Positions 32,685 through 64,000 of a DNA stretch of 64,000 nucleotides are shown here, piece after piece (position 1 is the stretch's first letter; the number at the start of each line of letters is the position of its first letter). The DNA comes from Tenacibaculum pacificus (lineage in GTDB: Bacteria; Bacteroidota; Bacteroidia; Flavobacteriales; Flavobacteriaceae). Below the pieces are notes generated by a model, which was given only the letters and a program-made list of their open reading frames with translations, did not search any database and had not been told where the DNA came from. The position numbers and the translations under genes were made by a program. The stretch lies in NCBI RefSeq assembly GCF_027941775.1, contig NZ_CP115917.1, positions 1,100,501 to 1,164,500 of the forward strand, in the 5' to 3' direction.

Positions 32685-32891
32685 ATGAGTAGAAAATATA
32701 AATTTCATAACGAATCAGGAGCATACTTTATAAGTTTTGCTACGGTATATTGGTTAGATATTTTTACTCGACAAGTTTATTTTTCTGTGTTAGAAGAAAG
32801 TATAGATTATTGCAGAAAAGAAAAAGAAATGGAAGTATTTACGTATTGTTTTATGCTGAGTCATGTTCATTTAATTTTTAGAGCAAAATAG
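32685..32891 (+). pseudogene. Truncated REP-associated tyrosine transposase (RAYT, IS200-like)
   Basis: The first 68 residues of a Y1 transposase of the REP-associated type: MSRKYKFHNESGAYFISFATVYWLDIFTR, then CRKEKEMEVFTYCFMLSHVHLIFRA with the HxH (HUH) metal-binding motif. Full RAYTs are near 180-220 residues and carry a catalytic tyrosine after the HUH motif. Here the frame stops straight after HUH and no continuation is seen before the aroB terminator, so it is inactive. The RAYT family mobilises or maintains REP sequences; its own palindromes are just upstream. Confidence 0.8.
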
Positions 32892-32937
32892 GCTCTAAGA
32901 ATCTAAAAAAATATTTAGTTTAATTTAATATTTTGTT

Positions 32938-62323: not shown

Positions 62324-64000
62324 ATGAATTTAAATCATCCGATAACATATATAAAAGGCGTTAGTGTAGCCAGAGCAGAATTGTTGTTTACCGAGTTAGG
62401 TATTAAAAGTTGTAATGATATTCTACATTTTTTTCCGTTTCGTTATATTGATAAAACTCAGTTTTATACAATTAATGAATTAACTCAAAATACGGCTGAA
62501 GTTCAGGTGGTTGGTAAGATAAAAGCAGTTAAAGAAATAACTCAACAAAGAGGAAGTAGGCTAGTAGCTACCTTTTATGATGGAACAGGTACTTTAGATT
62601 TAGTATGGTTTAAAGGTGCTAAATGGATAAAAAATAGTTTAAAAACAGATGTTCCGTATGTGATTTATGGAAAATTAAATTGGTATAATGGTGTTGCAAA
62701 TATGCCACATCCAGAAATGGAAACTGTAAAAGAATATAAAAGTAAGCCTCAAACGGCAATGCAACCTGTATATCCAGCTACAGAAAAATTAGCTAATAAA
62801 GGAATTACAAATAAAATACTTCGAGGATTTATTCAGAATTTATTTGAACAATTTTTTGATATCATAGAAGAAACACTTCCTGATTATCTTTTAAAAGAAC
62901 ATCAATTATTAGATAAAAAAGAATCATTATTTAATATTCATTTTCCTAAAAGTCAAGAATTATTAGCAAAAGCACAATATCGATTAAAATTTGAAGAATT
63001 ATTTTTTATTCAAATTCAATTATTACAGAAAAAACTCATCAGAAAATCAAAAATAAAAGGCTATGTTTTTGAAAAAGTAGGCGAATATTTTACCGATTTT
63101 TATACGAATCATTTACCTTTCGAATTAACCAACGCACAGAAAAGAGTTTTAAAAGAAATCAGAAAAGATATTGGTTCTACTGCACATATGAATCGTTTAT
63201 TACAAGGCGATGTAGGTTCTGGTAAAACAATTGTGGCATTATTAAGTATGTTAATTGCTATTGGTAACGGGTATCAGGCAACTATTATGGCACCAACCGA
63301 AATTTTAGCAATTCAGCATTATAACGGAATTGTTGAGTTATTAGAAGGAACAACTATCAAAGTTGAATTATTAACAGGTTCAACTCGAATTAAAAAAAGA
63401 CGTGAAATTCATACAGGTTTAGAAGACGCATCGGTACATATTTTAGTAGGAACACATGCTGTTTTAGAAGATAAAGTCCGTTTTAGAAACTTAGGATTAG
63501 CTATTATTGATGAGCAACATCGTTTTGGAGTTGCACAACGTTCTAAATTATGGCAGAAAAATCAAGCGCCAGCATCTCTTGATAAAAAAGGAGTAATTCT
63601 TCTTGAAAAATATAAAACTGAACATCCGAAGATATATAAGTTACATAAAGAAATAGCTTTAAAACGTAAAAATAAAACATCTAAAGAAGAAAGAGTTTTA
63701 TGGGATGTTTTAAGTACGATATCAACTACATCTAAATTTATAAGATATTATATTATTGATGAGTTTCTTATTGATTTTATCTGTCTAGAAAAAAAACTGA
63801 TTATAGAAGTTAATGGAAAATATCATACAACCGAAGTACAGCAAGAAGCAATTAATTTGCGTACTGAAGTTTTAACAGCATTTGGTTATAAAGTTGTTCG
63901 TTTAAATGAAAATCAAATAATAAATACATTAGAAAAAACAATTGCAAGAATTATTGCCACTTTAAAAATTCTTCCTACTATTATTGTTCAAAAGTCTGTT
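62324..64000 (+). CDS. recG: ATP-dependent DNA helicase RecG with inserted DUF559 domain (partial, runs off window)
   Basis: 559 residues are visible. The wedge/OB domain (TAEVQVVGKIKAVKEI, LVATFYDGTGTLDLVWFKG) covers the first 150. The helicase core has GDVGSGKT at 295-302, MAPTEILA, GTHAVLEDKV and DEQH at 396-399, then RFGVAQRSKLWQKNQAP ending at 416. Here RecG should continue with a MTATPIPRTLA motif. Instead at least 143 residues of a DUF559 (PF04480, Vsr-like PD-(D/E)XK nuclease fold) domain follow in frame: ALKRKNKTSKEERVLW, FLIDFICLEKKLIIEVNGKYH, FGYKVVRLNENQI. The window ends before helicase sequence returns. No stop or frameshift at the junction. Confidence 0.9.
   Translation, partial: MNLNHPITYIKGVSVARAELLFTELGIKSCNDILHFFPFRYIDKTQFYTINELTQNTAEVQVVGKIKAVKEITQQRGSRLVATFYDGTGTLDLVWFKGAKWIKNSLKTDVPYVIYGKLNWYNGVANMPHPEMETVKEYKSKPQTAMQPVYPATEKLANKGITNKILRGFIQNLFEQFFDIIEETLPDYLLKEHQLLDKKESLFNIHFPKSQELLAKAQYRLKFEELFFIQIQLLQKKLIRKSKIKGYVFEKVGEYFTDFYTNHLPFELTNAQKRVLKEIRKDIGSTAHMNRLLQGDVGSGKTIVALLSMLIAIGNGYQATIMAPTEILAIQHYNGIVELLEGTTIKVELLTGSTRIKKRREIHTGLEDASVHILVGTHAVLEDKVRFRNLGLAIIDEQHRFGVAQRSKLWQKNQAPASLDKKGVILLEKYKTEHPKIYKLHKEIALKRKNKTSKEERVLWDVLSTISTTSKFIRYYIIDEFLIDFICLEKKLIIEVNGKYHTTEVQQEAINLRTEVLTAFGYKVVRLNENQIINTLEKTIARIIATLKILPTIIVQKSV

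Follow-up and report, generated by a model that had tools for sequence, protein, structure and literature searches.

The recG gene of Tenacibaculum pacificus carries a DUF559 nuclease domain inside its open reading frame; the insert is a real feature and represents a widespread in-frame element in decayed form. On sequence comparison, it is probably a decayed copy of a mobile DUF559 nuclease element that sits in frame and does not splice. That the element is mobile is well supported by its anatomy and distribution; its way of moving is something we infer, and neither target duplication nor co-conversion was found. The window, i.e. the whole stretch of DNA analysed (64,000 nucleotides, positions 1100501-1164500 of a one-contig genome of 2,791,743 bases), holds these features:

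62324..64000, + strand: recG, first 559 of 842 codons; the ORF continues past the window end to a stop on the same contig
63566..64000, + strand: in-frame insert, about codons 415-559, between helicase motifs II and III
63566..63658, + strand: left linker of the insert, at the position of the left terminal repeat in relatives with intact ends; none detectable here
63659..63964, + strand: DUF559 (PF04480) Vsr-like PD-(D/E)XK domain, residues 446-547 (Pfam E 1e-20; PDB 3hrl E 1.1e-06; structure model)
63773..63775, + strand: codon of the conserved active-site Asp (D484)
63806..63814, + strand: E495-V496-N497, the conserved second acid being Asn here (ExD in 143 of 165 domains)

The frame from 62324 reads as RecG up to DEQHRFGVAQRSKLWQKN (residue ~414) and then as DUF559 in the same frame. 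The best NCBIfam RecG model covers residues 2-417 of the window ORF, and the PF04480 match reaches 74.1 bits against a curated cut-off of 20.6. Beyond the window, the whole-genome ORF resumes with PPHVLVMTATPIPRTLA (motif III) and includes the C-terminal helicase part before reaching a normal stop (842 aa in total); it does not end without the rest of RecG. A sequence-only reading of the window had proposed a DUF559 domain in frame within the RecG helicase core, and the PF04480 match together with the single 842-aa ORF confirms it. RecGs of relatives without the insert align to the window RecG as residues 1-416 and 557-842, and the insert, about 145 codons long, is taken up by DUF559 plus linkers. 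By RecG, the closest named relatives are Tenacibaculum piscium and T. finnmarkense (86% identity). We found no second RecG in the one-contig genome; the other helicase-type match is 35% over 190 residues, inside a 1114-codon frame.

Structure prediction of the joined protein, based on a 23-sequence alignment, places an alpha/beta unit at residues 421-550 (block pLDDT 71-86), with residues 421-549 forming a separate run of helices and strands; mean pLDDT for the whole model is 66 and pTM 0.39, and we draw only this domain-level statement from it. PDB 3hrl ('Endonuclease-Like Protein') is the only PDB relative covering the insert among the matches listed. Misassembly is a very unlikely source of the insert: 24 of 92 RecGs of the genus align over all 842 residues with no stops, and filled RecGs recur in a separate set of 80 loci from isolates and metagenome-assembled genomes.

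The insert is one of two in this genome. PF04480 has two matches, in RecG and in leucyl-tRNA synthetase (LeuRS), both in frame, so that a second housekeeping protein does carry the domain, as the sequence-only reading had suggested looking for. LeuRS is a single locus in all eight genomes checked, including this one (six as a single match, two as two pieces of one open frame), and the second insert therefore lies in the sole LeuRS. Across 36 genomes of the genus (G000-G035), 40 DUF559 matches fall in RecG (13), LeuRS (22), MetH (1), free-standing proteins (two) and other proteins (two, weaker). The expectation that DUF559 usually stands free thus fails in the genus, where 36 of the 40 matches lie within RecG, LeuRS or MetH.

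DUF559 is common beyond the genus, with matches in at least 169 of 395 genomes at family level (E 1e-6), at least 158 of 396 at class level (1e-10) and at least 128 of 296 at phylum level (1e-15). From the family and class matches listed, 60 loci each were taken, picked for long frames, and the fused share is not estimable from them. We examined 162 DUF559 domains in Bacteroidia and found 155 of them joined in frame to a recognisable host, with 16 host genes in all: LeuRS (78), MetH (22), RecG (19), HemD (9), IleRS (8), Acs (4), RecJ (3), HisD, IcmF and HisF (2 each), and one each for HutU, HsdM, a pseudouridine synthase, a RecB/UvrD-like helicase, a TPR-SpoIIE protein and HutG, where the HutG and RecB/UvrD-like assignments fall under the NCBIfam cut-offs. 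HemD, HisD, HutU and IleRS were read by eye, after which a family search checked between one and three members of each; the remaining members of a host were matched to these through BLAST or by eye. Outside the 155 are a RecQ-like protein by eye (L071, E 1.4e-5), L072 (E 2e-8), L272 (mostly N), three free copies (L073, L074, L274) and L253 (GATase_5 plus DUF559, handled as free in the tree).

There are at least 21 insertion positions in total. By flank mapping, LeuRS inserts fall at two sites (69 and 9 copies) and MetH inserts at three (14, 2 and 6); RecG has 18 inserts at one site, that of the window included, and 1 at another, and the two IleRS sites hold 7 and 1. DUF559 is N-terminal in HemD, HisF and the pseudouridine synthase, C-terminal in HisD and HutG, and internal elsewhere; it splits the host Pfam domains DHH (RecJ), AMP-binding (Acs), N6_Mtase (HsdM) and tRNA-synt_1 (IleRS). 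A longer insert at L362 was an artefact, a tblastn match running on into the next gene. Six long-frame loci were read outside the class: Pfam scans of five gave HsdR twice, a type ISP enzyme, an N6/N4 methylase protein and one without host assignment, and the sixth is MetH. In the two HsdR proteins (L406, L408), DUF559 lies between HSDR_N and SWI2/SNF2, possibly as the same element or as an ordinary accessory domain.

Filled and empty alleles occur at the identical RecG site, including in sister pairs. A RecG match was found in 92 of 97 genomes of the genus; 24 are full-length (842 residues) and filled, and the rest lack a full-length match. The 80 loci from isolates and metagenome-assembled genomes comprised 21 filled, 35 empty and 24 unparsed. 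For a RecG tree, for which 26 of the 68 other RecGs of the genus were fetched, 48 RecGs were parsed (27 filled and 21 empty, with six of these coming from beyond the genus) and 8 of 56 loci were left unparsed. Presence changes 14 times over these 48 taxa; with shuffled labels the mean is 15.9 and the minimum 10. Several sister pairs of a filled and an empty RecG have good support. Hence, presence among relatives is patchy.

Eleven of the 21 empty RecGs have a plain 15-residue loop. Some others (L100, L104, L289 and, in the isolate and metagenome set, L363) hold remnants resembling fused or shortened ends, with palindromes in AGCCCTTCTGACGGAAGAGCT (L100) and in the peptide EEVGGAI (L363). We read these remnants as likely frame-keeping internal deletions; alternatively, a lone palindrome may have been inserted. 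No target-site duplication was seen in 12 RecG comparisons, where the loop is variable. In another one-contig genome, a RecG C-terminal match lies in a 543-codon frame (G028:C1:1121164-1122018), possibly a broken recG.

We found terminal inverted repeats at the ends of many inserts. The MetH copies first read start with GCCCCC-nnn-CCCCCAAAGGGGGAG and finish with its near reverse complement, and RecG copies whose ends are visible open with AGCCC or GCCCA and close with GGGCT, with a small palindrome at each end. When each insert was compared with 100 triplet shuffles of its own right flank, 72 of 154 inserts scored better than all of theirs, where 1.5 were expected. Some free-standing copies have them as well: of 16 loci tried, 13 could be parsed, and 6, whose end sequences differ, scored above all 400 pooled shuffles. 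The window RecG insert has no detectable repeats (score 17; 64 of 100 shuffles equally good).

Palindromes also occur alone. Searching with a pattern for one end type gave 19 sites in five of seven genomes; the reversed control gave none, and none was found in the window genome. Ten of the 19 were read, some intergenic and some in frame within genes, e.g. in the LeuRS of G439. There, an isolated in-frame palindrome (L202, G439:C8:1770313) lies in the C-terminal part of LeuRS with a full DUF559 insert upstream in the same gene. In metH of G041 (L041), a longer sequence (peptide about SDGHTTVPPPAGEVRRGS) flanks the DUF559 unit as direct repeats, the ends elsewhere being simple inverted ones. The second MetH site of G026 (L039) holds a different in-frame palindrome (peptide KPRHFERSREVKEGLDCARPDISQ), where G301 and G439 have DUF559. 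Hence, the second MetH site accepts unrelated repeats.

Possible movement between sites was assessed on a tree of 165 domains. Grouping is mostly by site (HemD 9 of 9, RecJ 3 of 3), and all 18 inserts of RecG site 1 fall in one clade, together with five from IleRS, one from HutU and one from RecG site 2; LeuRS-site and IleRS-site inserts are polyphyletic. The MetH site-2 inserts of G301 and G439 nest within the MetH site-1 clade. G301 MetH carries two copies at two sites that are 82.4% identical in DNA, and its parsed relatives lack DUF559 at site 2; other insert pairs within one genome reach at most 65.3%. At one LeuRS site, the window genus has two insert types (insert identity 0.48 vs 0.88 for the host). 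A SAM riboswitch lies near the start of the doubly inserted G301 metH (L138:8145-8264, - strand).

The active site is decayed in the window copy. D...E-x-D...H is kept in 143 of 165 domains; the window RecG copy has E-x-N and two close relatives have E-x-I, so the domain is not the complete-looking one of the sequence-only reading. We take the loss of the ExD acid as a probable loss of nuclease activity. Among fused inserts whose flanks could be tested, none of the 22 acid-lost ones was positive in the repeat test vs 72 of the 133 with the acid kept (p 4.7e-7), a p value that overstates independence, as the 22 copies come from about three lineages. Both DUF559 copies of the window genome (RecG and LeuRS) are among the 22, and one decayed type is common to 18 LeuRS inserts of the genus.

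In one RecG clade, the insert is younger than its host. For G017/G027, synonymous divergence (pS) is 0.22 in the insert and 0.55 in the host (p 4.8e-6), and throughout G017/G022/G027/G101 the insert has fewer synonymous differences than the host on either side. The borders are sharp, with insert pS of 0.18-0.19 next to 0.58-0.67 in the adjoining 25 codons (G017/G027 and G101/G027), and no co-conversion of flanking DNA was found in this clade. The pair G001/G021 goes in the same direction, a difference lost after correction. Insert and host divergence are alike in the clade of the window RecG, a control against general constraint. Of 816 same-site pairs, two are significantly lower after Bonferroni correction, both from the G017/G022/G027/G101 clade, and one (IleRS) is higher. 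Hence, the low insert pS is one event confined to one RecG clade and not a rule.

Omega in 14 pairs is 0.06-0.35 for the insert and 0.02-0.11 for the host. The insert is under purifying selection, as expected if it is translated. At RecG, 9 of the 10 supported splits of the insert tree agree with the host tree, and the patristic correlation is 0.39 against a 99% null of 0.32; incongruence as proof of transfer was therefore not obtained. The sole conflicting split, perhaps a product of long-branch attraction, places L096 with the decayed clade of the window copy. Since the splits agree in 9 of 10 cases, the recent history of the RecG insert looks mainly vertical, with losses.

The explanation we prefer is that the element would consist of one gene, a Vsr-like PD-(D/E)XK nuclease (DUF559), between terminal inverted repeats each with a small hairpin, and that it would enter conserved genes. 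Internal copies would have no stop of their own, so that the host frame would stay open and the nuclease would be made within the host protein, apparently translated as part of it and not spliced out. DUF559 may drive copying by cutting DNA, either at the empty site or at its palindromic ends, and the host protein presumably functions with the insert in place. Loss would occur by internal deletion, leaving part of a palindrome behind. An insert in a needed gene may outlive its dead nuclease because only a clean in-frame deletion could remove it. Several points count against this explanation: no target-site duplication was found, nor any co-conversion, which classical homing would predict; synonymous-site evidence of transfer comes from one clade only; the recent history of the RecG insert is mainly vertical; 61 of the 133 inserts that keep ExD are repeat-negative in the shuffle test; and Y1 transposases, matched in most genomes checked, could move palindromes.

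How such a unit would move can be argued in two ways. Allelic homing, in which a site-specific DUF559 subfamily cuts the empty allele, repair proceeds from the filled allele and new sites are rare accidents, is the mechanistic version of the preferred explanation without transposition, and we regard it as plausible though somewhat short of an even chance. It fits the clustering of domains mostly by site, the usually unrelated copies at different sites of one genome (DNA identity up to 0.653, the G301 MetH pair at 0.82 excepted) and the young insert of one RecG clade. It sits poorly with the polyphyly of LeuRS-site and IleRS-site inserts and with the repeats, to which ordinary homing gives no role; classical homing with co-conversion was set aside, as the flanking tract was looked for and not found. 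The other way, transposition on the palindromic ends by DUF559 itself or by a Y1 (IS200/RAYT-type) enzyme in trans, is a little more doubtful. It would account for repeats on both in-frame and free-standing copies, for the G301 MetH two-site pair and for isolated palindromes, intergenic and in frame, as a non-autonomous form. Y1_Tnp matches occur in 13 of the 15 genomes checked; however, G017 and G022 have none, yet their RecG inserts show repeats by eye (automated scores 20 and 15, unflagged), which weakens a Y1 transposase as the sole mover. Pfam scans of 22 filled proteins found no Y1 (HuH) transposase inside the unit, recent jumps are few, and the missing target duplication (in a variable loop) also speaks against transposition. 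The window itself has a weak remnant of a Y1 (IS200-type) transposase at 32736-32915 (G000:C1:1133236-1133415), with two stops and under the family cut-off.

The remaining readings fare worse. An old fixed architecture, with DUF559 gained once per host long ago as a useful domain and lost many times, would agree with the shared RecG splits, the purifying selection and the single decayed type of the 18 LeuRS inserts. It is unlikely, given that the domain occurs in 16 unrelated genes, in some of them at two or three sites, that the insert ends carry repeats, and that a single LeuRS site in one genus holds two insert subfamilies. A nuclease accessory to RecG at stalled forks was one of two alternatives offered by the sequence-only reading, and its position inside a helicase is what speaks for it. 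We ruled it out as highly improbable, since the same domain lies in aminoacyl-tRNA synthetases (LeuRS among them), MetH and other metabolic enzymes, the conserved acid is lost in the window copy, and 68 of 92 RecGs of the genus have no full-length match. The other alternative, a domain-level mobile element that tolerates in-frame insertion, gained support from the many hosts, the terminal inverted repeats, the patchy site and the two related MetH copies; the earlier proposal thus held in part. An intein or self-splicing intron that removes itself is just as improbable: the in-frame position in conserved genes is intein-like, but the frame is open across both ends and the ~145 codons are filled by DUF559 plus linkers. 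No Hint splicing domain was found in the window protein and 21 other filled proteins (Pfam E limits 0.01 to 1e-8), in line with the earlier observation that intein blocks are absent, and no group I or II intron RNA family reached the gathering threshold at six loci.

Going beyond the single insert, we consider it nearly an even bet that these are phylum-wide autonomous elements that live translated and unspliced in essential or housekeeping proteins, built of DUF559 and REP-like ends, with internal copies lacking their own start and stop, isolated palindromes as non-autonomous offspring and dead copies as inert domains; DUF559 would then mobilise Bacteroidota palindromes as RAYT does REPs. RecG, LeuRS, IleRS, MetH and other host proteins seem able to accommodate some 145 additional residues. 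If the preferred explanation is true, it describes a route for selfish DNA to create new protein domains and accounts for a 'domain of unknown function' that recurs in unrelated enzymes. Inference from domain fusion (DUF559 plus RecG taken as fork repair) could then mislead, and the insertion sites would mark loops able to take an inserted folded domain.

We found no earlier description of an in-frame DUF559 element in the open-access literature, the scope of our search (subscription papers and most preprints lie outside its coverage). The DUF559/PF04480 family name assigns no function, and PDB 3hrl, of the same family, differs in being a stand-alone 104-residue chain. Mobile nucleases inside conserved genes are thought to depend on splicing. 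REP/BIME sequences with their RAYT (Y1) transposase consist of inverted pairs of hairpin palindromes around a small nuclease gene, plus isolated palindromes. The DUF559 units likewise have paired hairpin palindromes and isolated ones; unlike REP/RAYT, the gene is DUF559 and not a Y1 HuH enzyme, and the units lie in frame within coding genes. For the nuclease, the nearest precedent is the homing endonucleases, of which PD-(D/E)xK and EDxHD are known families and which self-splicing hosts allow to invade conserved sequences (PMC3943268). As described there, homing endonucleases and inteins resemble the DUF559 insert in placing a nuclease gene in conserved genes with filled and empty alleles (PMC3943268). 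The DUF559 insert differs in that no intron or intein that removes it was found, in its terminal inverted repeats and in the absence of co-conversion. For in-frame palindromic insertion, the nearest precedent is the Rickettsia palindromic elements, described as palindromic repeats within ORFs that keep the frame and lie at the same place in orthologues (PMC3767692). Those elements are given there as 100-150 bp (PMC3767692), whereas the DUF559 unit includes an entire nuclease gene, comes with several types of end and occurs in a different phylum.
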